Assembly (NCBI GenBank): GCA_000442125.1
Contig: KE546976.1
Location: 248,001 to 312,000, forward strand
DNA: 64,000 nt
Source of the DNA: Opeltia flavorubescens
Lineage: Eukaryota; Ascomycota; Lecanoromycetes; Teloschistales; Teloschistaceae
Direction: 5' to 3'
The translations under genes and the position numbers were made by a program. Shown in pieces: positions 21,966 through 61,094 of this stretch. A model generated the notes under the pieces. That model made no database searches. It was not told the DNA's origin and was given only the letters and a program-made list of their open reading frames with translations. Numbering within the stretch: position 1 is the first letter of the stretch; each line of letters begins with the position of its first letter.

Positions 21966-23048
21966 ATGACCAACCAAGACTCTTTTGACGACCCCCGGTA
22001 CTGGGAACGTTTTCAGATCACGAGAGATCGTCAGGCAGTCCTCCTATCGGACTGGTCGGAAGAAGAAGTTCCTCTGGATCTCCTGTCTTCTCCCACTTCA
22101 GAACAGGAACAAAGAATCACCGATTGCTGGGAATTTCATATGCTATGCGTGGGCAAATTAGCAGGATTACGAGAAAACTTACTTGCTTCCGTACTTCATA
22201 CGGACCTCGAAACAATCCAAATGGAATACGCAGCCATCATACAAAGGAGAACCTCCTTTTCAGACGACTTCCACACGGACGAGACATTCGCTGACTTTTG
22301 GCTCGACAATTTGAAAGGTCAGCAACTCCTAGACAAGATGATGTACCATGAATTGCTCGACGATCTATTCGAAGGACTGCGTGAAACGTCGTCGGATCGG
22401 CGGAGGCGGAAGTGTTACGGATTGCCTGCGCGACTTTCTTTCGAACTGGATGAGGATGTGATTCGTACCTTTCCGGGACACCAAAGCGATTTGGAAAAGC
22501 TGCTTGATTGTCCAGAGCGCCGTCTTGACCTACTTGATGCGTACAATCTATTCGAAGAGAATATACTGAGGAAGATCAAGGATGCATACGACAGTTTCCG
22601 ATACTTGGGTCGAGTTCTTGCTTCCTGGACGGATGATGATCTTGATACCCCTTTGAACGACCCTGGCCTACCGCCGGACCTTTCCAACCTTGTTGGCCAT
22701 CAGGATTCAGTCAGGGATTCTACAAGGGACTCATCTGAGACAGCATACCTTATTCATGATCCTTTTGTCGCTCTACACGCTTGGGCATGTGAGTTCAATA
22801 TTTTGCACGGATATGGACAATCACCATCCGATTCTACTCCTTCTACCCCTGAACAAAGTGTGGAACCAGATAGCGATCGAAGACTCCAAGGCAGAGAGAC
22901 CGCCAGACCACGAGATGAGCACATGGGGCTGATGGACGAAGATTTGGAAGTTTATGAGGATGATGAGATGGAGGAATTGTTCGGTGAAAGATGTCGTACA
23001 AGATATTGGCTCTGGGAGGAAGGAGAGATGACAGCTCGTGAGGCTTGA
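21966..23048 (+). CDS. orphan protein, paralog of the 23.9-kb gene
   Basis: Single exon, 360 aa from ATG 21966 (the frame extends upstream to 21858 but without an ATG). The central part is helical and acidic. The string LDKMMYHELLDDLFEGL (about residue 120) matches LDQRMYFELINDIMHGL in the gene at 23898-25125. A preceding FADFWLDNLKGQQ matches VRQLWADKIKHQD, and an upstream ITDCWEFHM matches IQDDWLIHM. The C-terminal third is Ser/Pro/Asp-rich and disordered, ending with Glu/Asp-rich segments. No membrane or secretion signal is seen. No known family comes to mind; the pair appears to be a diverged tandem duplicate. Confidence 0.7.
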   Translation: MTNQDSFDDPRYWERFQITRDRQAVLLSDWSEEEVPLDLLSSPTSEQEQRITDCWEFHMLCVGKLAGLRENLLASVLHTDLETIQMEYAAIIQRRTSFSDDFHTDETFADFWLDNLKGQQLLDKMMYHELLDDLFEGLRETSSDRRRRKCYGLPARLSFELDEDVIRTFPGHQSDLEKLLDCPERRLDLLDAYNLFEENILRKIKDAYDSFRYLGRVLASWTDDDLDTPLNDPGLPPDLSNLVGHQDSVRDSTRDSSETAYLIHDPFVALHAWACEFNILHGYGQSPSDSTPSTPEQSVEPDSDRRLQGRETARPRDEHMGLMDEDLEVYEDDEMEELFGERCRTRYWLWEEGEMTAREA

Positions 23049-23897: not shown

Positions 23898-25125
23898 ATG
23901 TCGAGATACAACAAGCACTCGATGAATGGCTACGAACCAGAGCAATACTACTTTAGTAGAGCTTGGAAGTCGGCCAACGACCGTTCATCTGCTCCTTCGG
24001 AATATCAGGATTTTCAGACAGCCTCATCGTATCACTGTGACACAGCGTTCCCACCGCAGACCACAGCATACCCACCGAGTTATGCTCAACATGCTGAGAG
24101 CGGAATGGATAGAGAAGGTACCTCCTCTGCACCAGTAAAGCCACATTGATATTGACTCAAAGCTGATACATCACTGCTCAGAGAAATCTTATCCTTCAAA
24201 CGAGTACTACTCAGCAAGCTTCAAGACTTTTCCTGGATCTAAAGAACATGCATTCCTATTTTCAGAAGGTATCCAGGACGACTGGCTGATCCACATGATC
24301 CAAGTCGCGATCTACCCTGCGGGAATGGTCGAGGATTTCATGTCAAAGGCATTCAGTTCGGCGGCTCAAAAATTCGACAAGTTCTACCCCTATGTCAAAT
24401 ACGGGACTGTATACCTTTCGGATGGTCGTGATGTGAGACAATTATGGGCCGACAAGATCAAACATCAGGATTTCCTCGACCAGCGAATGTACTTCGAGCT
24501 GATCAACGATATCATGCACGGTCTGTATCGCTCCTTGTACGATAGAGCAGATAAGAAGTGCCGAAAGCCCGGGAAAAACTGCTTCCAATTCCATGAAGAG
24601 TATATACGAAAATATGAAAGCACGAATCCAAAGCCACTTTGTAGAGACACTAGGCCGGCACACAAGTTGCCTTGGATCTTCAAGGTTTACGGCGATGAGG
24701 CGATCGACAGAATCTACGGTGGGTTCCGAGAGCCCAACCCACCGGACTCATTCGAAGGTATCGTTATATCCCCACCGGATCCACGAGATGTCCGATACCC
24801 TTTGCATAATGGCTTGCCAGTGCATGGAAATTCACATGGTCTCCCACATGTTGACATTCAGAGCGGATCATGGTTGGATGACAGCGAGTCGTATCAGTCC
24901 TCGCCCTCTACTGCCCATACCTACGCAGCTATACCCAGCAATGATTACCTTGAGCCTGGAAGAAGTCAACACATCCACCGAAGAGACGAGTACATGGACA
25001 GAATGCCCAATGAACCAGCTCCAAGGTATGAAAAGAGCAAGGCAAACGAAGGTAAGAAAAGGCATCAGTCGAAGCCTAATGCTTGGTCTCGAAGGAGAGA
25101 GAGCAGCGCGAGAACGAAATACTGA
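23898..25125 (+). CDS. orphan protein, paralog of the 22.0-kb gene
   Basis: Two exons, 23898-24117 and 24182-25125, giving 387 aa. The 64-bp intron runs GTACCT...GCTCAG with a CTGAT branch and joins the frames exactly. The first 95 residues are Tyr/Ser/Pro-rich and disordered. The helical centre carries the motif LDQRMYFELINDIMHGL shared with the upstream paralog. The C-terminal third has His-rich stretches and a strongly basic tail (KKRHQSKPNAWSRRRESS) that could act as a nuclear signal. The paralog at 21966 has no intron in the matching part. Unknown function. Confidence 0.7.
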
Positions 25126-40755: not shown

Positions 40756-41385
40756 ATGAATGCAACATTGTACACGATTCCCGACATACCTGCTCATGTG
40801 GACCCTTCTAAGCTTGTGCCTATCGAGTACCATTTCATCGGCTACTTCACTCAAGCAATAAGGCGGCCGATGTCGATAGGAGAGCTCACAAGGATCCTAA
40901 AGGCTGCGCGCCAAGTTTCATTAGTACATTGTCTAGACAATGGCTCTTTCATAGCTACTCTCAAGGAAAATTGGGACAGCAGACCCTCAATTGGATTGGA
41001 TTTAGTGACCACCGAGAGTCGAGACATGCACAATCCTTTGCATCCATTCTATCCGATCTTTGTATACTGGCAAAAGTTCAAACGGTCTTACCGTGGTTAC
41101 AAGGATCGATCAATGATTCCCGATTCTTTCTTAGTCGGGCTCGAAGCGAGTCACCCTGCTCCAGCTCCAGAGATGATGGAAGCCGTTGCGGATGCTACGC
41201 TGGTGCGGCAGTACAAGAATATCCCCAACATCAACACATTTAGTACTATGCCAAACCCGCACATTATGAAAATTATGCAACGATACACAGAATGGAAATC
41301 AAAGAGAGCTTTCCGTGGGAAAGTAGAAAGTGCTGGCTATTCGTTGCCTTCTGATTCTGGAAGTACGTGGAAATCTCATCCATAG
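40756..41385 (+). CDS. orphan protein, paralog of the 42.6-kb gene
   Basis: Single exon, 209 aa from ATG 40756. The core IEYHFIGYFTQAI and SIGELTRILKAARQ resembles the helical core of the region's small genes. PFYPIFVYWQKFKRSYRG aligns with PYFEVWQYWRSLHTFYRG of the gene at 42598, and MQRYTEWKSKRAFRG with ATKYKEWKSELERFWLG, in the same order and spacing. The 35-40 residues between the blocks differ. The two genes are 1.2 kb apart in the same orientation, so they are a diverged tandem duplication. No signal or TM helix. Function unknown. Confidence 0.7.
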   Translation: MNATLYTIPDIPAHVDPSKLVPIEYHFIGYFTQAIRRPMSIGELTRILKAARQVSLVHCLDNGSFIATLKENWDSRPSIGLDLVTTESRDMHNPLHPFYPIFVYWQKFKRSYRGYKDRSMIPDSFLVGLEASHPAPAPEMMEAVADATLVRQYKNIPNINTFSTMPNPHIMKIMQRYTEWKSKRAFRGKVESAGYSLPSDSGSTWKSHP

Positions 41386-42597: not shown

Positions 42598-43131
42598 ATG
42601 TCTGAGGAACAACCACTGCTTTCCATCGACGAAATCCACCTCCTGTGCTGGCTGAGGCTGCAAGACTACACATTTGACGTGATCGCGAAGGCAATGTCAT
42701 ACCGAGCAATGTTGTCCCAATGCAATGTCCTCGAAAACGGTGGCATCGACGCAAAATTTAATGAACAGCCAACGCCTGGCGAGCTGAAAACCACACCAAT
42801 GCTATCGAACATACTGGAGCACATCAAGCATCCACAGAATCAGCCTTACTTTGAAGTCTGGCAGTACTGGCGATCACTCCATACCTTCTACCGTGGTGAT
42901 ACTAAGAAATATGATAAAGTGACAGTTCACTCAGAGTTTAAGTTCCTTCCTGAAGAAATGGAGGCTTTGGTCAAGGTCGCACAGAAAGGGGACATTGAAG
43001 GTCTTGGAGGAGATGATGAGTATCTCAAGAAGGTTGCGACTAAATACAAGGAATGGAAGTCTGAGCTGGAACGTTTCTGGCTCGGTTTCCACGATCCAAC
43101 AGCTTGGAAAGCGCAGCAGGGGGGTCAGTGA
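42598..43131 (+). CDS. orphan protein, paralog of the 40.8-kb gene
   Basis: Single exon, 177 aa, ATG in a good context (GGCACCATGTCTG). Core: IDEIHLLCWLRLQ then TFDVIAKAMSYRAML, the two-helix pattern also seen in the 51.5-kb gene (VDEIWMLVFARTL; SFETIAQALRASVRM). The second half shares PYFEVWQYWRSLHTFYRG and KYKEWKS with the upstream paralog at 40756. No membrane or secretion signal. Unknown function. Confidence 0.72.
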   Translation: MSEEQPLLSIDEIHLLCWLRLQDYTFDVIAKAMSYRAMLSQCNVLENGGIDAKFNEQPTPGELKTTPMLSNILEHIKHPQNQPYFEVWQYWRSLHTFYRGDTKKYDKVTVHSEFKFLPEEMEALVKVAQKGDIEGLGGDDEYLKKVATKYKEWKSELERFWLGFHDPTAWKAQQGGQ

Positions 43132-45334: not shown

Positions 45335-45871
45335 TCAAATCCAATAGTCTATCCTCAAGTGCTCCTCCACATTCTCACCCCACTCAAAATCCCCTAACCT
45401 CAAATCCGTTCCCCCAACCGCCGCCGGAACCCCAAACGGACTCTCCTCCACTGGTCTTCGAAACCATTCATGCGCTTCCCCGGTCCTCAGCGTCGCGATC
45501 AAAAGCCGAAGTATCAACTGCCGTGGTAAAAAATAATCGACCTGTCCCGGAAAGACCTTGAGGATAAAGGCCCTGGTGGGTTGTGAGCGGTCAACATCAT
45601 ACCATGTTTGATCTCGATCGTAGTCGTTCGGTGCGGTGGCGACCGTGGGCTGAGAGTTCAGGTCGAAAAGGATTCGGACGCGGACGGCGTCGATGTCGCG
45701 GCGCATCGAGGCGAAGATTACTTGTTGTAAACGTGCGTTTGCCATGGCGATGAAGTCGTCGTCTGGCACGAATCTGAGAGTGCACGTGATAGGGAGGTAG
45801 ATGGGTATGGTAGCGGTCAAAGGAGGTTGGCTCATGTTGTGACACCACTGATCTCTGTAGTTGCGATACAT
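45335..45871 (-). CDS. RLL-family orphan, member 1
   Basis: Minus strand, single exon, 178 aa from ATG 45871 (or 166 aa from ATG 45835). First of five genes at 45.3-50.8 kb sharing one plan. Block 1 is PITCTLRFVPDDDFIAMANA followed by RLQQV and a beta-like segment with VRVRILFDL. A variable middle with Asp, Pro and Trp follows. Block 2 is YFLPRQLILRLLIATLRTGE. Block 3 is LGDFEWGENVEEHLRIDYW at the C-terminus. No signal peptide or TM helix. The only member on the minus strand; it is head-to-head with member 2. No known family. Confidence 0.65.
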   Translation of the reverse strand: MYRNYRDQWCHNMSQPPLTATIPIYLPITCTLRFVPDDDFIAMANARLQQVIFASMRRDIDAVRVRILFDLNSQPTVATAPNDYDRDQTWYDVDRSQPTRAFILKVFPGQVDYFLPRQLILRLLIATLRTGEAHEWFRRPVEESPFGVPAAVGGTDLRLGDFEWGENVEEHLRIDYWI

Positions 45872-46408
45872 GATGTTTTCGCCATATGGATGTTTTTGGT
45901 GATGCAAGTTGGTGAGAATGGAGAGGTCGGTGGCGGGAAAAGATGTTTTTGAGAGACAGGAGCATTATCGTAAGTGAATGAGGAAGGAACAATCCATGAC
46001 TTCTAAAGGTCTTGAGCCTCTTTCGGTCATCTGGGTAATCGGAGTAGAGCAGCGAGTAGCTACTCTTGAAAAGGGCCTGAGACTGTTCCGGAAGGGTGGA
46101 ACACCTTTTCGCAAAGGAGAACATATCAGCTTCATTTGGAAACTAAGAAGTTTCTGGGGCGGTGATCTTGAACCCTTTCAACAATCTCAATGGAGCTGAC
46201 TTGAGTGGTATCCACAGAAACTGGTTGAAACTCGCGAGCTTTTGGTCTAACGTGTCCCTCCAATCCATTGCATTGACTAGAACAAAGCTAGCATCGTCGA
46301 GTGAGATCTTCAATCCTAAATTGTCTCTCTCTCTTGCTGATGAATGCTGCCAGGTCATCAATTGGATCAAATCAGCCCTTCAGCCAGATTGTTCTCTCAA
46401 CTAAAAAG
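45872..46408. other. intergenic between divergent members 1 and 2
   Basis: 537 bp. Holds both promoters. The plus frame upstream of ATG 46409 is open back to 46301, but without matching the family. Nothing else is seen. Confidence 0.4.
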
Positions 46409-46924
46409 ATGGTTTTCTACGTCGATGGAGACCAATTCGTCGGCGATTACAAACCCACCATGGTCAAACACTACCTCACCTGCACGTGCCTTGACTTCCC
46501 TGATGAAGACTTTCTCGCAATAGCAAGTGGACGCATGGGACAAATCCGTAACCTTGTGATTGGCCAATACCTTCAGATCAGAATGTCCATCGACCTGTCC
46601 TGGCCAATCTCCACGCAGGGATACGACGAACTATGGGGATATGCGGACCGCCCTGCCACCGAGACATTCCTTTTGATGAAAGATCCGGGGAATACAAATT
46701 ACTATGTACCGGGACGCCTTATTTTTCGCCTGCTTGTGGCAAGTTTCCAGGCCAATCTTGCACAAGGGATGTTCTACACCAAAGGACCGGCTGGTCCGAC
46801 TCGTTCACTGTTGTTCGATTGGGATCGAGACATTGGGCATATCTTCAAAGTGGATTACTGGACTCCGCAATTTGATACATTACCGGATGTCGACCCGGCA
46901 TCGATTCTGCCTCCTGATTCTTGA
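46409..46924 (+). CDS. RLL-family orphan, member 2
   Basis: Single exon, 171 aa from ATG 46409 (AAAAAGATGG). Block 1 is YLTCTCLDFPDEDFLAIASG with RMGQIRNLV and a beta-like QIRMSIDLSW. Block 2 is YYVPGRLIFRLLVASFQANL. Block 3 is LLFDWDRDIGHIFKVDYW. It agrees closely with member 1 in order, spacing and the closing DYW. Exon-free and cytosolic by appearance. No function known. Confidence 0.7.
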   Translation: MVFYVDGDQFVGDYKPTMVKHYLTCTCLDFPDEDFLAIASGRMGQIRNLVIGQYLQIRMSIDLSWPISTQGYDELWGYADRPATETFLLMKDPGNTNYYVPGRLIFRLLVASFQANLAQGMFYTKGPAGPTRSLLFDWDRDIGHIFKVDYWTPQFDTLPDVDPASILPPDS

Positions 46925-47562
46925 CACTGCCGTTGGGAAGTGGGGATAGTTTTAGAAGCGGGACTGTGGGCAGAAACTCATCCAACATGAGCTGTCGTGA
47001 AAGTCGGAAAGCTCTTATGATCATGGCGAGGTAGCAGGTTCAGAATCTTTTAGCCTCGGGAGACTGCTTTGCACGAAGTCTGTCCTTGCTATGTGTTCAC
47101 AGTTTTCATACTACTGCGTGCCATCCCTTTTTATTTCAATCCTCCACATTCTTCCTTGCGTACATCAGGGCGATAGGCATGTATAGCCATTCCCTCTGCC
47201 CTGGGCAATTGGTGCTAGATTCTGAACAAGGATGGGGCGGAGGGGAAGATAAGGTAGTGGTCGCGACTCCATCTTTGGGAAAATCGCTCATGATCAGCAG
47301 GAGCGAGTGTGTCGGTGGTATTTCGTCCCTCGTCCCTGCCAGCCTTTTCCGCTTCTCTACAATCCGGTTCTCCAGAATAGCAATCAAACAAGCTCAAATC
47401 TACTGACAAAATTATCAGTATTCATCAAAAGTCACTCAGCATTACCATTCTCCATAGCATTTGTTCCATCAGTCTCTTATTCCTCAGCACAGACGTCTCA
47501 TCCCGCATCGCGCACTAATTGTCCCACCATCACGGTTCCCGCTGAACGATCACTATTCCACA
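46925..47562. other. intergenic
   Basis: 638 bp, nothing seen. Open frames on both strands at 47136-47406 show no motif. Confidence 0.4.
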
Positions 47563-48270
47563 ATGGGTTCTCGAATGGCCTGCAAGCCTGCTCGGGTGAA
47601 GGACATGGAAGCACAGCCCGGTCATTCAACGCGCTGTGTGATGCAATGCACCGCATACTTGACAATACAAGACCACCAGCCAATGGTACTGGCAACCCGA
47701 TACATTAGCCGCGTCGAAGGAATCGTACTGACAGCAGCCAACCTCAATTTCACAATTTACGTCGACATGAGGCTTCCCGTGAGTGACTGCGATCGTATGC
47801 AAATGGCGCAACGTTTGGCACCGTGCAAAGGATGGTTAGCGCCAGCCGTCTATCCTGTCTACGCCCACCCTCACCGGCACCAATGGTATTTCGAGAGCCA
47901 ATTTGCGCTGCGGTTGCTCATGGTGGCATTCAAGATTGGGTTGGCGCAGAAGGTCATGATGGATATTGAGGATAATAGTCCGTTGCCTTGGCCGATTCGC
48001 TTCATCCAGTTTTCGTGGTTTCAAGTTCAGCATATGTTGATACTTAATCATATTGATAAACCTTGGCCGCCTGTTCAACCTCAATTACTATTACAACAGC
48101 CAGTGATAAAACAAGAACCACCGACGCCACAACGACAACGACAACCACCACCACCACAGCGACAACAACAACCACCGACACAACAAGAGACGCAATCACC
48201 AGAGCAAGAACGACCAGCAAAAAGACGACGACAACAACAAGTACCACTATCTTCCCTATCGTCTTCATAG
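47563..48270 (+). CDS. RLL-family orphan, member 3, with Gln/Pro tail
   Basis: Single exon, 235 aa from ATG 47563 (CACAATGGG). Block 1 is MQCTAYLTIQDHQPMVLATR with a beta-like NFTIYVDMRL. Block 2 is QWYFESQFALRLLMVAFKIG. Block 3 is IRFIQFSWFQVQHMLILNHI. Unlike the other members it has a 60-residue C-terminal tail rich in Gln and Pro, ending with PAKRRRQQQ, a possible nuclear signal. The tail is encoded by a CAA/CCA/CGA-rich low-complexity stretch (about 48090-48245), so it was probably gained by repeat expansion. Confidence 0.65.
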   Translation: MGSRMACKPARVKDMEAQPGHSTRCVMQCTAYLTIQDHQPMVLATRYISRVEGIVLTAANLNFTIYVDMRLPVSDCDRMQMAQRLAPCKGWLAPAVYPVYAHPHRHQWYFESQFALRLLMVAFKIGLAQKVMMDIEDNSPLPWPIRFIQFSWFQVQHMLILNHIDKPWPPVQPQLLLQQPVIKQEPPTPQRQRQPPPPQRQQQPPTQQETQSPEQERPAKRRRQQQVPLSSLSSS

Positions 48271-48734
48271 AATGCATCATCTTATAATAAAGATTGGTCC
48301 GCAGAGCAGAATTTTGGTACAACATATCCAACAAAAGGGATATTGAATGCCGACACACCTTCTTGCTCGAGGCGTTACGGCATGGTCCAATGCTTCTAGT
48401 GTAAAAAGGCTGATTGGGCGAAGGGTATTCTTATCATGTACTTTGAACTTATCGGGCGGCTTTTGCATATTAACGGTCTGGGAAATACGGATCCGATAGT
48501 CTGGTACATGATGGTGTAACAAGAAATCGATGAATTCTGGTGCATGTTGCTACTGTTTATGTTTGTCGGCCCAAGTTGTTAGTATAACGTTGATTCTTTT
48601 CTGGTGCAACGAGTGGCCGGAAGAGGACGGTGGAGTGCAGGAAGGTATTCGGTCGGTGAGATAGGCTGATATCTGATGTGCAACAGTAGTTGAAATCGGA
48701 TCGATGGAGTTTTGTCATACCTCCGAGCGAGGTC

Positions 48735-48740
48735 TATATA
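48735..48740 (+). promoter_or_regulatory. TATA-like box
   Basis: TATATA about 205 bp upstream of ATG 48941. Confidence 0.3.
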
Positions 48741-48780
48741 TGAGCTGATTTTCCTTCCCTCCGATGAAGTTTTCCAGAGC

Positions 48781-48798
48781 ATCATCATCATCATCATC
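48781..48798 (+). repeat. (ATC)6 microsatellite
   Basis: Six perfect ATC units in the leader region of RLL member 4. Confidence 0.9.
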
Positions 48799-48940
48799 GT
48801 ACAATTTCGTTCCCGTTCCTTAAAAAGTTCCCAGTACCAAGTCTTCTCATCCATCTTGTTTTATTAGACTGATACTTCTTATCTCACAAGCATCATTCAA
48901 CGTCAAGGGGCACTCACTGTCGAACATCCTCATTCGTATC

Positions 48941-49504
48941 ATGGATCCAACCATCGCCATGTTCTGCGGGAAGAAGGATAAGTATGATGCGATGGTACGA
49001 GACGGCAGAGCAATCGCCTGTGCTCTACATTGCAAGCTCCGCACCCTGCCAGAAGACCCCTTCCTCATCAAAGAAGCACTCTGGCGCCGGGGCCAGATCC
49101 GGAACGTGGTCATAAAGCAGCAAAACTGGACCGTCTATATCTACATGGAAATCAACCGAGAACCTGCCCCGATCGATGATGAAGTAGTGAAAGAATTGCA
49201 GGGGAAAGGCAACACGTGGTGGGACAAAATGGGGGCATTCCCCATCTACGCCGTTCCGCTACAGCGCGAGTATGAGGTCGAAGCCCAACTTGCTATACTT
49301 TTACTCTTTACTGCTATTAAATTGAATAAGACGGAGGGGGTCCTTGATGCTAAACCTACCGGCGCAGCAGCAGCTTCGCCTGTGCGTGTTGCTCAGTTCT
49401 CGTTTTGGGAGGCTACCACTGTTTTTGGTATTGACCTTTTGGAAATTCCATGGGCACCGAAGGGAACACTACCTCCTATGAAGCCGTGGGAGAAGTTTTC
49501 GTAG
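48941..49504 (+). CDS. RLL-family orphan, member 4
   Basis: Single exon, 187 aa, ATG 48941 (ATCATGGAT). Block 1 is ALHCKLRTLPEDPFLIKEAL with RRGQIRNVV, matching RMGQIRNLV of member 2, and a beta-like WTVYIYMEIN. Block 2 is EYEVEAQLAILLLFTAIKLN, with ILLLFTA in place of LRLLVAS. Block 3 is VRVAQFSFWEATTVFGIDLL. No signal peptide. Function unknown. Confidence 0.68.
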   Translation: MDPTIAMFCGKKDKYDAMVRDGRAIACALHCKLRTLPEDPFLIKEALWRRGQIRNVVIKQQNWTVYIYMEINREPAPIDDEVVKELQGKGNTWWDKMGAFPIYAVPLQREYEVEAQLAILLLFTAIKLNKTEGVLDAKPTGAAAASPVRVAQFSFWEATTVFGIDLLEIPWAPKGTLPPMKPWEKFS

Positions 49505-50148
49505 GTCTCCAACGACGACCAAGCAGCAGGGAGTGCTTTGATCAAGAGCTCATTCAACATGAGAGGATCGTTGCTCGGGTATATTTTGCGAGGGTTGGAA
49601 ATTGCGACGAGAATGTCCTTCTTTTGCACCGATTTGTATCGCCGTGGTAGGAGAGTTTGGGGTCCTGGGGTCTCTCATCAGTCACTCGCTTTTCAATTAG
49701 GGACTTCATAGTCCGGAGTTAAATGATACAACATCATTATTGCATACGATGCATTCTGTCTTCTCGTATGTGTAGAGTTCAATCTGTGGTATGAACCCAG
49801 AATATGTTGGAGGTTGTGCTATGCTTGCGTAGGCTTTTCAAAGGTGTTTCGTTTTCTGATGCTTTGATTAAAGATTGTAATTTGCACTTGATTTGAAACG
49901 ATTTTGTTCCGAGTTTTAGGGCCACACAGACCGACATTCTAACTTCCGAGGATGATTGTTGCGAGCTTGTGATCGAACGTCGCTCGAAGAATCGTCGACG
50001 TAGCACTGAGATACAGGCTTCATCCGCAATTATCATAAGCTGAGATGCCTGATCCTGATGAACGATCTAGAGGAAGAAGAATGTTCTGTTTCTTATCATG
50101 TCTCCACTGAGAGTGAAGCAAGAGCCATCCAACTTGTGAGTCAGAAAC
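49505..50148. other. intergenic
   Basis: 644 bp. Nothing is seen beyond short unconvincing frames. Confidence 0.4.
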
Positions 50149-50793
50149 ATGTTTACCTGGTCAAAATTTGCCGTCAACTTCTTCCAATCTTTTGGAATAC
50201 TTCTCTTTGACAGCTCAGTCGCACTCAAATCTGCTGCCTCGACAAAAGTCCTCTCAGGCAGTATTTTGCTACATCCGGCAGCTTCGTCAGAATATTCAGC
50301 AGAACCGAAAACTTTCCTTACTTTGCAAACCATGATGCTTAAAACCTTCATATGCAGCAGTTGGATCTTCGACTCCGACGACGAATTTATCTTCCCAGCA
50401 CTGGTGAGAATCAACGACGTCCTTCGCCTTACCTTCGTTAGTCATGAAAGATTCTCCTTCACGCTCGTTGACAGCAAAAACATCGAAGAGCGGAAGGACT
50501 GTCACCGAGTGCCCCAGCTTCCATCGGGGCCCGACGATTCTGCCAGATGGGCACGCAATTATGAGGTCATGTATGACCCAGAAACGAGAGTGTCGGTGGA
50601 GGAAGTCACACCGGAGAAGGACGTGCATGATATTCTAGCCTTTAGGGTCTTGTTGGCTTGTTTCATGGCGGGGCTCGAGAGGGAATTGTTTCCTGAGAAT
50701 CCGAACTTTGATATCGTGGGATATGATGGGTTGCCTCAACGCGTTGTCACTGTTGATTGGGTTCTGTTTCATGATCATCTTCATCTGATCTGA
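50149..50793 (+). CDS. RLL-family orphan, member 5 (most divergent)
   Basis: Single exon, 214 aa from ATG 50149, or 153 aa from ATG 50332, where the family similarity begins. Block 1 is SSWIFDSDDEFIFPALVRIN followed by a beta-like RFSFTLVDS. Block 2 is DILAFRVLLACFMAGLEREL. Block 3 is VVTVDWVLFHDHLHLI at the stop. The extra N-terminal 61 residues have no counterpart in members 1-4 and may be non-coding. Membership rests on the order and spacing of weak motifs, so it is less sure than the others. Confidence 0.6.
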   Translation: MFTWSKFAVNFFQSFGILLFDSSVALKSAASTKVLSGSILLHPAASSEYSAEPKTFLTLQTMMLKTFICSSWIFDSDDEFIFPALVRINDVLRLTFVSHERFSFTLVDSKNIEERKDCHRVPQLPSGPDDSARWARNYEVMYDPETRVSVEEVTPEKDVHDILAFRVLLACFMAGLERELFPENPNFDIVGYDGLPQRVVTVDWVLFHDHLHLI

Positions 50794-51527: not shown

Positions 51528-51983
51528 ATGAACGATCCAAGTCGTACAAACTTCATAGGTTTTTTTAGAGGACAACCGGGGTTTTCAATCGATTTCCACA
51601 CTCCAGAGCTCAAATACATGACCTACAATCTCCCAGTCGACGAAATCTGGATGCTAGTCTTCGCTCGTACATTAGGGCACTCTTTCGAGACGATTGCTCA
51701 AGCACTTAGAGCCAGCGTCCGCATGGTCCCCACAGCAGGATCGATCCATCTGGTTGATAAGAACCCAAGCATTGGCTTACATAGAGGCCTAGGGATCACC
51801 GCAGAAGATGTCGAGACTTGGTTCGATATCTGCGAGAAAACATCGGACCTTGTCAAGATCTTCGACCCCAAGGAGCCGCTGCCCGACGGTTTGGATAAGT
51901 TTTTTGTGATGCAACTTCACCAGAAATTCGAGACCTGCTGCGCATATTACGAAAAAATATTGGCGGGCGATGAGGAGCAATGA
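51528..51983 (+). CDS. small orphan protein with HTH-like core
   Basis: Single exon, 151 aa from ATG 51528. The core VDEIWMLVFARTL then SFETIAQALRASVRM is close in pattern to the 42.6-kb gene (IDEIHLLCWLRLQ; TFDVIAKAMSYRAML) and to the large protein at 60.1 kb (EDDLWIIGVLKAA; REIAETLKWSDRF). The remainder is helical and acidic, with a Cys pair (ETCCAYYEK) near the end. No membrane or secretion signal. Function unknown. Confidence 0.68.
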   Translation: MNDPSRTNFIGFFRGQPGFSIDFHTPELKYMTYNLPVDEIWMLVFARTLGHSFETIAQALRASVRMVPTAGSIHLVDKNPSIGLHRGLGITAEDVETWFDICEKTSDLVKIFDPKEPLPDGLDKFFVMQLHQKFETCCAYYEKILAGDEEQ

Positions 51984-52765: not shown

Positions 52766-54613
52766 CTACTGAGGAACCGGTTCCAGCATCGAATGACGAA
52801 ATCTATATATTCTGCGAACGTCCTTATCGTACCGCAGTGATATTTCCTCCAATTTCGTTTTGAGCTCCTCCAAATCCTCCGCTGGATACGCTCCTGGGTT
52901 CTCTAATACATCTTTCAACTTTTTCTCCATTCCAGATCTCCTTACTTTCTCTGACCGGAACTGCTCCATCAGATCCCATACACCCTCAAGTCCCAAGCTC
53001 GGCAAACCTTTCAATCTAAGCAGCTTGACCTTTTCTTGACTGTCGAGACCCATGACTCCAACCTTGAGGCTAAATCGCACTCGACCCTTAATGCACTCTT
53101 TACTCAGGCTTACTCCGACGAAATTCGACATACTTTGCAGCATAGCGCAATAATTGTCTGCAACATCTTCACTCGCGTAGGCGGCATTATGATAAAGCTT
53201 CAACATTTCTCCAAGAGAAGGTGGCCGCTTTTCTTTTTTAGACTCGCTAGGTGGAGGTATGTGGACGTCTACACGTGGCGCGACCGTATCATGTCGAATG
53301 ATTAGAAAGAAACATTCACCGTCCGCGGAATTGATTCGTAGCACATCTGGTAGGTCATTAGGCAGGAGCTTCATATCCCAGCCCTTCCACCACTCCTGGG
53401 CTGGGATCTCGCCATTGTATGCGCATACAACTCCCCATGCCTTTCCGACTGCAGCGTAAAATTGGAAAGAGAGAGTCTGCGTATGTACCGACTCTGAGAG
53501 TCCAGACGTGATGAAAGTAGGACTGATAAAAAGATCGCGATACATGAAAGGCGCTGAACTATGCTTCATCTTGAAAAACTGTAACTCCCAAGGGAGTACC
53601 CTTGACGTTGTACCATCGGCTTCGATTCGACCACGTAGCATCAGGCTGACTGGAGTCTCTGTATCCGTTGAACGTGCACAATTCAATGGAGCAAGGTAGT
53701 CTGGCGTAGCATCCATCTGTCGAAAAATATCATCATGGCCGGAAGTGTACAGTAACGCCATTTGTTCGAAAGCCAATCCACGATTCGTTACGGTGTAGAG
53801 GCCATTTCTATCGAATTCAGAGAACTTGACGGGTATGATACCACCGGATGTAGCAAATGCAGCCGGAGAGCGTGCGAGAAGACCGCTGCGAGCAAGACCT
53901 GAGTCGCACCATGCAAAGATAGATTCGTCGTCCGAGACTTTCACAATTTCATGTTGCAGACGCATGAACGCTTTATCACCCTCTCCATACAGCAGTGGCA
54001 TATTGACGTCGAAGAGTCCCAGTAGACAGTACGCAATATCCTCCATCCGAGTTGTCTCTCTGTGTGCAGCCCAAGACATTTTCGTGGCAACGCTGGCGCT
54101 CAATAGATTGAACAAGTGCTCAGGTGAAATGCCAGTGATTGACGAGAGCTCTCGGCGAAGACTTCGCTTTGTATCCAATACTTCCCAACACGCGTTCACA
54201 AATATGACTATACCGGGTGCCAGAAGCTCTTGTAACGTCCAACCACGGGTGAACCATCTGCTAAAGTAAAAATCGTCACGAGAAATACTCACGACATCAG
54301 CCAGATAGGTATAGCAAACCTGGGCCTCCCTATACCAGCGAAACATTGAATTAATTGCCTCGGAAAGCCCGGCGCTGCTTCTCTTGTCGATGCAACAGGT
54401 ATCAATCCAGACATGCTCCCAGCCTTCGGACGCCGCCAATTCGCAACATCGGATAATCTTCTCATAGCCTGCTAAATGCGCACAATCTTGTGACTGGATA
54501 TCTTCAAAGGAAACCTCTTCTTGCTCCCATGTGTGTGAGAGGATCGCGTAGGGTGGAATTTGGTGTCCATAGTATTCTTGAAGTGTGATGCTCCCAGTCT
54601 TCAAAAGGCGCAT
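52766..54613 (-). CDS. HET-domain (heterokaryon incompatibility) protein
   Basis: Single exon, 615 aa, ATG 54613 (MRLLKTGSITLQEYYG, the usual start of this family). The HET domain (PF06985) covers about residues 20-160 with its three blocks: PYAILSHTWEQEEVSF, HVWIDTCCIDKRSSAGLSEA with MFRWYREAQVCYTYLADV, and RWFTRGWTLQELLAPG. The conserved follow-on EDIAYCLLGLFDVNMPLLYG is also present. No NACHT, ankyrin or WD repeats follow; the C-terminal 350 residues are unassigned and end in a charged helix. HET proteins trigger cell death when incompatible hyphae fuse; whether this one does is unknown. A GTGAGT...TTTAG stretch of 32 bp inside the domain is not an intron, as removing it breaks the frame. 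Confidence 0.95.
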   Translation of the reverse strand: MRLLKTGSITLQEYYGHQIPPYAILSHTWEQEEVSFEDIQSQDCAHLAGYEKIIRCCELAASEGWEHVWIDTCCIDKRSSAGLSEAINSMFRWYREAQVCYTYLADVVSISRDDFYFSRWFTRGWTLQELLAPGIVIFVNACWEVLDTKRSLRRELSSITGISPEHLFNLLSASVATKMSWAAHRETTRMEDIAYCLLGLFDVNMPLLYGEGDKAFMRLQHEIVKVSDDESIFAWCDSGLARSGLLARSPAAFATSGGIIPVKFSEFDRNGLYTVTNRGLAFEQMALLYTSGHDDIFRQMDATPDYLAPLNCARSTDTETPVSLMLRGRIEADGTTSRVLPWELQFFKMKHSSAPFMYRDLFISPTFITSGLSESVHTQTLSFQFYAAVGKAWGVVCAYNGEIPAQEWWKGWDMKLLPNDLPDVLRINSADGECFFLIIRHDTVAPRVDVHIPPPSESKKEKRPPSLGEMLKLYHNAAYASEDVADNYCAMLQSMSNFVGVSLSKECIKGRVRFSLKVGVMGLDSQEKVKLLRLKGLPSLGLEGVWDLMEQFRSEKVRRSGMEKKLKDVLENPGAYPAEDLEELKTKLEEISLRYDKDVRRIYRFRHSMLEPVPQ

Positions 54614-55527
54614 GACTTCATCATACTTTCAGCCAGCAAGAAGTTTGACACACAGAAATGGCGACTCAAGGTCCCGCACCAAGGTAGAAAGTCCGAGAAG
54701 GCTCAATTCTGGGCAGTACTAAGGTGGCGAGAGGGCAGCATAAAGAGGTGTCTACAAATATTGTTCCTTTTGAATTTCGACATTATACTCTATCAACGAA
54801 ATTGACACAATGTGCAAACCAGGAAAAAGAGCCAAGGAGACAGACAATATGATGAACAGCCACGACTACCTTTATGCATTACCTGGAAAAATTTGAGTTG
54901 CTGCTTGTTGACAAGGCGTAGAAAAGCGCCAAGGATTCCTAGTAAATCCTTGGCGCCAAGCCACAGATGACTTTCCCCCATGTCCCCTTATTTTGGACCC
55001 TAGCCCTACCTTATTCGCTCCCTTTGGCTTTTGCCCGTCTGAACATCTCAAGAGCAACTGATATCCAGACGAGATTCATCTAGCATCTCAGTGCATCCAA
55101 GTACGGCTTGAGGTGATGCTTATAGATCTGTTTCAACCTAAGCTTCTCGGATAGTTCTCTCACTTGGCGATTTGGCTTCTCTTGCAACGGAGGACGACCG
55201 TCGAAACGACGGAGGAAAATTTTGGGAACGAGGTCTTACAGATGGTAATGACCAAGATTATGGCTCGGAATAGAACCAAACTGGCGGAATGCGCCCAACC
55301 TTGCCCAGCGGCATTCTTCGGCGGATGCTTGCACAATCATAGGTGGGACCTCGATCACCCTTGGCAACCTTACCATTCGATGCTTCACTGTCTTTATCTC
55401 GAGTTGTACCCGTAGATTCGATACACAGCCGTACTGTGACTCACGCTTGCACTATCTTCGTCCTTTGCACATATATAACCTATGTTCTCAGCTGTATTTC
55501 CCTCCGCCTCCGAGTTCCTCAGCGTCC
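54614..55527. other. intergenic, divergent promoters
   Basis: 914 bp between the HET gene and the kinase-like gene. A TATA box at 55472 belongs to the latter. Otherwise nothing. Confidence 0.4.
55472..55478 (+). promoter_or_regulatory. TATA box
   Basis: TATATAA, 50-56 bp upstream of ATG 55528. Confidence 0.4.
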
Positions 55528-58152: not shown

Positions 58153-61094
58153 ATGAATCCCATTGAATTCCTCGTATTCCTACTACACTATCCTTTCAAG
58201 TATTTGGCACTGTTCACACTTTGGGCCTACACACTCATTTACAGAGCGATATACGGAGAAACCCTCTTCTTTCGCAAGAGTCAATTTCTAAGTCACCATC
58301 GAAAGAGACCAGAAGATCACGGTACTTCTGATGGTATTAAAGACTCTAAAACTCCTCCTACCAATTTTTTGAATCTTTATCGAGACCACTTGATGCACCT
58401 CGACCACGACGGTGAGTTTGAAGACGAAACTGGAATACAAGAGTCCACCCGCCGTGTCAGATTCGGCGATCGCCTGGCACACAATCCCTCGGGATCTGAC
58501 CATACACAAAGCTACGTTGAGAATGATGGAACCGGCAATGAATCCGCAGATTCGTGTTCCGGGGGATCAAGTGAGAAAGGATGCGAATGATGCGGAGAAA
58601 GATGTCTCTATAGCCAACAGTGAAGATCTCCAAGCCAGTACAGTAAGTTATGAGACGGTCGAGCTTCTAAATTCTCCTTCGTTTGGCTCCAAAACTGACT
58701 ACTTAGACCAGCAAACTTGATAGAAAAGCGGAAGAGCAGCTTGCTTCGTTTGGTAACATTTCGCATTGCAGCCATTCATCCTGGACGGAAGAAAGCCACG
58801 CGTCCACCTCTAGGCCATCTGAACGTCCTTTCCGTCGGTCGGAGGTTGTGCAGAAATGGAAGGCAGAGAGAAAGATAGAAGCACCGGGAAAACTTCGTGA
58901 ACAATCGAATCCCCTAGATGATGGACTCGGCGAGGATGATCAAGCAGCCCTGGTCCGCAAGGCAGATGTCAACCCTGTCAAGACGGACAAAATCGCAAAC
59001 ATATATCAAATTGATGATGAACCTGTATACTGTGGGCCATCAATCACTTGCCTGAGGGAATCCAATTTGAAGACCGTCCAGGAGATTGAGGCACTTTGTC
59101 AAGCTTTCGATAAGGAGAATGCCTCAAATAATGCCGACGTCGATAACCCGCTTCCCACCAACCTTACCCAATTGAATATCCAAGGGATATCGGTCGGTAA
59201 AGATGACATTAGACCGCCGAACACAATTGAGGAGGAAGACCAAAATACTATGGAAGCAACCTCCTGCGCGTGTGACATCTCATCACATGCAAAGGGTAAG
59301 CAATTCCAGAGATTCGTAACATCCGCTTGGCCCACCGTACTGTCTATGGAAATGAAAGCGAGAGATCTTGCCGACCGTGATACCGACATCTATATCAGAT
59401 TCCTGAAGAATTCAGAACGCCTCGTAACAATCTTACAAAAAATCCGCGACGTAGAACTTCTTGATGGAGACTTGGACANTCAGAAAACTGAGTACGGGGA
59501 CGACGTATCACCCCTCGATATCATCAGGCACAAATTAAGAGGACTCTACACTAATGATATGCTTATGATTGGCTCTATCGAGAAAAGATTAGCCGAATTG
59601 TGGCAAGGATTTCATATCGTTGATTCATCAACACTTGTACAGAAGATTAACAATCAGCGACAAGACCAAGCTCGTGGTTTAGTGGTCAATCACGATCCTG
59701 TGTTTTCTCCCAAATCACTACCAGATGATTGCCCGGCAATGTTTGAAGCTGTCGTTATCCCTAAGAAAGAGTATCCTCAACAGGAAATAGACAATGAAGA
59801 AGGACTCCAAGAAGAAGATGTCAGCACCACAATTCCATATGAAGACCCACCTCAGTTCTTGGTCCAAGCCTTTGTAGATTTCTGGCCCTTCGCCATGATG
59901 ATCCGAGGATTCCTCATCCAAGAGGACCGAGATGAAGCAATTGCAGGATTGTTTGCTGGTCATGTCAAGGCGAAAATGTCCAAAGCCGCCGCTGACAACG
60001 ACGATTCTTCACTGGCCAACTTCCACGAAAGCGATATCGCACAATGGTGCCTCACTCAAATGAAAAGCAAAGATGCCGAACCTGACATTGAACCTGCCAA
60101 AGTCTCTGAAGAACCTACTTACACCCGCTTCCACGAAGACGACCTTTGGATAATAGGAGTTTTGAAAGCAGCCGACGTCCCAGATAGAGAGATCGCCGAG
60201 ACATTAAAATGGAGCGATCGCTTTATACAGATGGACGCATGCGTGAAATTTGACGAGGTGCCCCCGCGCCAATTCACAGAAGAGGAGATCGAAGAAAAGT
60301 ACGAAGAGATGCTAGACGCAGGGCGGAGACTGGAAGAAGAGATGGAGGATGAGGAAGAGATGCTCAACGAAGACGGAGAAGAAGCGAGACGCGAAAGCTT
60401 ACATACGTTAGGAGAGGAGAATCAAACATCCGCCTCTCAGCAAAACACTACAACATACATCTCCTTCCCTTCACCCGTCACCCCGCAGGCATTCCCACCC
60501 ATCACCCCGCCCCCCGACCCAAACACTATCCCCACCAGCCGTCCCTCCTCCCCTGCTTCCCTCCCCTCCCTCGGAAGCACCACTCTCTCCACTACTCATC
60601 GAAACTACTTCCAAAACCTTCAAACCCTACATTCGATACAATACTATTCCAACCTGCTCGTCAATCATCCCTCGATCCCACACAGAAACCAGTCCTACAC
60701 CTACCCGTCTCCATTCGCACATTTTGGACTTCACGCTCGGCGTGCACAGCTCATATATGAACTTGTGAAGTTGAAGAGACGATCTCCGGAGAGGGACACG
60801 TTTACAGTTATGCCATTCAGGATGCCGGGTGAAGGGCTGCAGAGGGGTGCACTCGGATGTACATTCGTGCCAGATGCCGGGGAGCCCTCAAAGGAGGCGG
60901 CTGCAGAAGAATCCTATGAGGCTGTAGGAGGAAGCGCAAAGGATGAGGGAGACGAAGGATCAGAAGATGAAAAAATGGCGGAGGAGGAGCAGCAGGAGGA
61001 GGAAGAGGTTTTCACCCTCGCTGAAGAGGTAAGCTATGATCAACCCTTTCACAACACTACGCCACTGATGGATGATAATACTGTAGAATTTTGA
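58153..61094 (+). CDS. large membrane-anchored acidic orphan with HTH-like core
   Basis: Reconstructed as three exons, 58153-58570, 58621-58642 and 58712-61094, giving 940 aa. Introns are 50 bp (GTGAGA...CAACAG) and 69 bp (GTAAGT, branch CTGAC, ACCAG). The middle exon is only 22 nt, but without it the outer exons are out of frame. An N-terminal hydrophobic helix (FLVFLLHYPFKYLALFTLWA) suggests a membrane anchor. The next 450 residues are mainly acidic and disordered. About residue 620 comes EDDLWIIGVLKAA with REIAETLKWSDRF, the same core as the small genes upstream, followed by a long Glu-rich coiled coil. The tail is Pro/Ser- then Glu-rich. One codon contains an ambiguous base (59479). Unknown function. 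Confidence 0.65.
59479..59479. other. ambiguous base (N) inside a coding exon
   Basis: One unresolved base in the codon ANT (residue about 402 of the 940-aa protein). It does not break the frame. Confidence 0.95.

Follow-up and report, generated by a model that had tools for sequence, protein, structure and literature searches.

The window analysed here is a 64,000-nucleotide stretch of the Opeltia flavorubescens genome (assembly GCA_000442125.1, contig KE546976.1, forward-strand positions 248,001 to 312,000), and positions are counted from its first letter. At 45.3-50.8 kb it carries five neighbouring unnamed genes, G1 to G5, which had been predicted from the letters alone to form a tandem family. 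Stop-to-stop reading of this region gives one uninterrupted open frame for each gene, and the gene count, coordinates, sizes, inverted copy and Gln/Pro tail of the original prediction were all found to be right. Start codons are chosen plausible ATGs, with alternatives at 45835 for G1 and 50149 for G5, and the gaps between the genes measure 537-830 bases. The features of the array are as follows:

45338-45871, minus strand: G1, 178 amino acids (166 if the ATG at 45835 is the start); the inverted copy
46409-46921, plus strand: G2, 171 amino acids; the member with a structure model
47563-48267, plus strand: G3, 235 amino acids; family domain in about the first 175, then a Gln/Pro tail
48110-48186, no strand: imperfect 27-bp tandem repeat that codes for a portion of the G3 Gln/Pro tail
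48941-49501, plus strand: G4, 187 amino acids; its nearest member is G3
50332-50790, plus strand: G5, 153 amino acids (214 from the in-frame upstream ATG at 50149); the most divergent member

We tested homology among the five with leave-one-out profiles, in which a profile of the other four members was compared with the 432 open reading frames (ORFs) of at least 60 amino acids in the window. Every left-out gene was recovered, with expect values (E) of 4.3e-11 for G1, 1.9e-13 for G2, 3.3e-9 for G3, 3.8e-10 for G4 and, weakest, 0.0039 for G5, which confirms the predicted family. For control, 2000 shuffles were made per gene, and among those that were scored none reached the real score (0 of 1551, 1309, 1707, 1580 and 1589 for G1 to G5, respectively). 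Pairwise Smith-Waterman alignment (500 shuffles per pair, G3 without its tail) yielded z scores of at least 5 in 7 of the 10 pairs. Single-sequence searches of the same ORFs connected G1 with G2 (E 3.4e-13), G3 with G4 (6.1e-12) and, more weakly, G2 with G4 (2.3e-5); G5 was reachable from G1 only (E 0.0058, reverse 0.014). When a profile of G1-G4 was compared with G5, a probability of 79% and an E of 1.6e-5, the latter for one comparison, were obtained. Family consensus searches gave E values of 5e-15 and 2.8e-13 for G5, which are not independent because G5 contributed to the consensus. The tree supports the grouping of G3 with G4 and little else. Judged by these sequence comparisons G1-G5 are one homologous family, with G5 the less certain member.

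Three sequence blocks had originally been described as common to all five proteins in the same order. These motifs proved looser than claimed: G3 lacks the DxF of block 1, which an insertion displaces in G4; block 2 of G4 (LAILLLFTA) has no Arg, and block 3 of G5 is without the last Trp. Columns invariant in all five are few, namely A39, P93, L109, P130 and R132 in G2 numbering, to which a trimmed alignment adds M1 and C25. Modelled with AlphaFold2 from the five-row alignment, G2 displays an alpha/beta fold with moderate confidence (predicted local distance difference test, pLDDT, 71; predicted template modelling score, pTM, 0.67), and a single-sequence model of G1 reached a pLDDT of 33. The comparison of folds that had been suggested as a check therefore yielded the G2 model only, and it is the sequence profiles that speak for a fold common to the five. 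Foldseek searches with this one moderate-confidence model, against libraries without cellular predicted structures, gave no significant match, and no viral fold was matched with an E of 0.001 or lower. A crude hydropathy scan found no strong signal-peptide-like or membrane segment in G1-G5: the best 19-residue means are 1.20-1.49, and within the first 30 residues the best 11-residue mean is at most 1.55, rising to 1.61 in the short form of G1 and to 1.75 in G5 when read in its long form, the least clear case.

The copies are far apart from one another. Amino acid identity between them is 13-31% over the alignment, the number of synonymous substitutions per site (dS) lies between 1.3 and 2.6 and was not computable in 2 of the 10 pairs, and the nonsynonymous counterpart (dN) ranges from 0.76 to 1.51. 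Comparison of the cluster with itself as DNA revealed no similar stretches between copies at E 0.01; in the upstream regions the shared matches span just 10-20 bases, with E values of 0.07 upward. Since DNA likeness is lacking and dS is saturated, the array is old for the rate at which it changes, which bears out the description of the copies as old or fast-evolving; for the same saturation the dN/dS comparison proposed with it was run and is uninformative. Conservation is highest at codon position 2 in all 10 pairs (0.39-0.59, versus 0.26-0.39 at position 3), a pattern that is partly expected because the alignment was built on protein similarity. A codon-usage score placed the true frame clearly best in G2 and G4 and narrowly best in G1. 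The conservation pattern of G1-G5, as read from the sequence, is that of protein-coding genes.

Outside the cluster we searched the host genome (34.4 Mb, 23 contigs; the window is C12:248001-312000). The family consensus matches five places genome-wide, all inside the cluster (C12 293341-298793); a sixth copy as diverged as G5, or split by an intron, could escape it. Searches with each single member (E up to 10) found no credible copy elsewhere, and are insensitive, G5 having recovered only itself. One match on contig C6 (E 0.18) was rejected as a copy, as it contains an internal stop and no open frame of 70 amino acids. In the 264 kb around the cluster a profile detected no additional member, the strongest other match having an E of 0.85. 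None of the five proteins matched an entry in Pfam (0 families each, E up to 10), NCBIfam or the PDB sequences. Against 5.8 billion proteins, in a search that depends on shared five-residue words, the five-row profile had 2 of 555 candidates confirmed, both belonging to this very species, one being G2 itself and the other a fragment of G5 whose reading begins at a GTG codon. With G2 alone there were 17 candidates, and only G2 itself was confirmed. The view that the family carries no named domain thus stands across Pfam, NCBIfam, the PDB sequences and this protein set. Queried with G2, prokaryote contigs gave 17 pattern matches and viral contigs 2, with no relative confirmed in either, the single-protein viral scan being insensitive. 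No description of the family appears among the literature records listed.

Beyond G5 lies a further gene:

52769-54625, minus strand: HET-domain gene (PF06985; Pfam E 1.5e-8), not a family member, 1978 bases past G5

We considered whether G1-G5 are HET-domain proteins themselves and rejected this, as none of them matches PF06985; one such protein lies 2 kb from the array. The HET protein also served as positive control for the protein search and returned at least 7996 matches. After the window's own protein, the best named among the 120 matches listed were Letrouitia leprolyta (75% identity), Ikaeria (58%) and Blastenia (62%, covering 79% of the query), all of them Teloschistales, followed by Cadophora, Caloplaca and Amylocarpus. 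Lichen fungi of the Teloschistales are therefore present in the protein set, and the host is probably a member of this order, judging by one gene from a fast-moving family.

The wider region, from about 18 to 52 kb, is flanked by aconitase and aminotransferase frames (13-17.5 kb) on one side and by the HET gene and a kinase (53-57 kb) on the other. Pfam gave no match above cut-off for any of 20 hand-picked frames in it, G1-G5 included; these are part of the frames there, and some are perhaps not genes. Positions ~18000-52000 may perhaps be an island of orphan genes. A second clear tandem pair of unnamed genes, with no Pfam family, is found at 21966-23045 and 24139-25122 (both plus strand; E 3.8e-11), and in the genome search the former matches only itself and its neighbour. 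Another possible pair, at 40756-41382 and 42598-43128 (both plus strand), was joined at E 0.0012 by a single query out of 344; given that number of queries it is not significant, and the pair is not established. By eye, short stretches at 51528-51980 (plus strand; DEIWMLVFARTLGHSFETIAQAL) and 58707-61094 (plus strand; DDLWIIGVLKAADVPDREIAETL) resemble one at 42598. For 51528-51980 this likeness is without profile support (E 0.8), and for 58707-61094 it is by eye only. In single-protein genome searches the frames at 40756, 42598 and 51528 each match only themselves.

A known counterpart of such an arrangement comes from Neurospora crassa, whose lineage-specific genes are reportedly often clustered with paralogues and HET genes, the large clusters lying typically toward telomeres (PMC10684091). 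As in those clusters, the genes here have few or no known domains, the duplicates stand together (all five consensus matches fall at one locus) and a HET gene (PF06985, 52769-54625) lies within a few genes. The likeness is one of arrangement; the present locus differs from the Neurospora clusters in belonging to another fungal lineage and in that the array lies 293 kb inside its contig.

We propose, with a probability of roughly 0.6, that G1-G5 are a lineage-specific family that arose by repeated local duplication of a small intracellular alpha/beta domain, followed by long or fast divergence. One such domain in a filamentous ascomycete would have been duplicated locally several times into the five-gene array, and the copies would then have diverged over a long time or quickly. 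The proteins would be binding modules and not enzymes, because structural residues dominate the invariant columns, which include a single Arg and no shared catalytic set. They would act inside the cell, as they have no strong N-terminal hydrophobic segment, and the members may have diversified their binding partners. A small intracellular binding module is, we infer, the simplest reading of the five sequences, and our best guess is a role in regulation or recognition. G3 is perhaps nuclear: the basic run KRRR at residue 220, near the end of its tail, could direct it there. Local families of new, rapidly changing genes have been known before; the family described here is new, its kind of locus is not.

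Several observations weigh against this reading. The pairs G2-G5, G3-G5 and G4-G5 have z scores of 3.3, 1.0 and -1.3, and shuffles equalled or exceeded the real score in 86 of 500 cases for G3-G5 and in 494 of 500 for G4-G5, which is chance level; profile comparison with G5 is poor for G1+G2 (17%) and for G3+G4 (0.3%). As these three pairs are not significant alone, G5 owes its membership to G1 and to the profile. In G4-G5, dN exceeds dS. The codon-usage score does not support the true frame in G3 (tied, and not best when the tail is included) or in G5 (second), and the position-2 pattern carries the expectation noted above. The protein search returned no G1, G3 or G4 of the fungus's own species, though these are in the profile; with a protein set that lacks them, absence of relatives is weak evidence. 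At least 88 HET matches occur in the genome, several with internal stops, so that proximity to the HET gene is at most suggestive; the chance of such a gene within 2 kb is very roughly 3%, a figure chosen post hoc and assuming evenly spread HET matches. Finally, about 293 kb separate the cluster from the closer end of its contig, which measures 1,598,914 bases.

How novel the domain is can be read in other ways. G1-G5 might be an ordinary array of an old domain, belonging to a known fungal domain family from which they have diverged so far that searches of the present depth miss the link. We regard this as possible, if somewhat doubtful: at the identities given above single members barely match each other, relatives so distant would be missed by a search for shared five-residue words, and the Foldseek search relied on a single moderate-confidence model and on libraries holding no cellular predicted structures. 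A bolder reading, which we consider improbable, takes the alpha/beta fold itself as new and born in one lichen-fungus lineage; the old, contiguous array would then have been kept since its members act together to recognise self, partner or microbes, perhaps jointly with the HET gene and the unnamed genes near by.

Fungal effectors are typically small, orphan, tandem and fast-diverging, and the typical secreted ones are Cys-rich. G1-G5 share the first four properties, their host is probably a lichen fungus, and G5 read from the ATG at 50149 has the more hydrophobic N-terminus, so that they may conceivably be secreted proteins of an effector-like or symbiotic kind, locally amplified and directed at the algal partner or at other microbes. 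However, the five lack a strong N-terminal hydrophobic stretch in the hydropathy scan and have few Cys (2, 2, 5, 3 and 3 from G1 to G5), which makes such a role quite improbable. A relic of a virus or mobile element captured by the host would likewise account for orphan origin and local amplification, but the consensus search found no copies elsewhere in the genome, no relative was confirmed in viral contigs with the G2 query, the viral fold search was negative at the threshold given and the copies have no DNA similarity to each other; this origin is hardly credible.

On the preferred reading of a locally duplicated domain, G1-G5 make up an orphan family whose members are demonstrably related to one another and so far to nothing else, and whose copies, saturated as they are, still stand side by side. 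With loci of this kind one can test how new domains originate and diversify, and whether lineage-specific clusters beside HET genes are general in fungi, lichens included.
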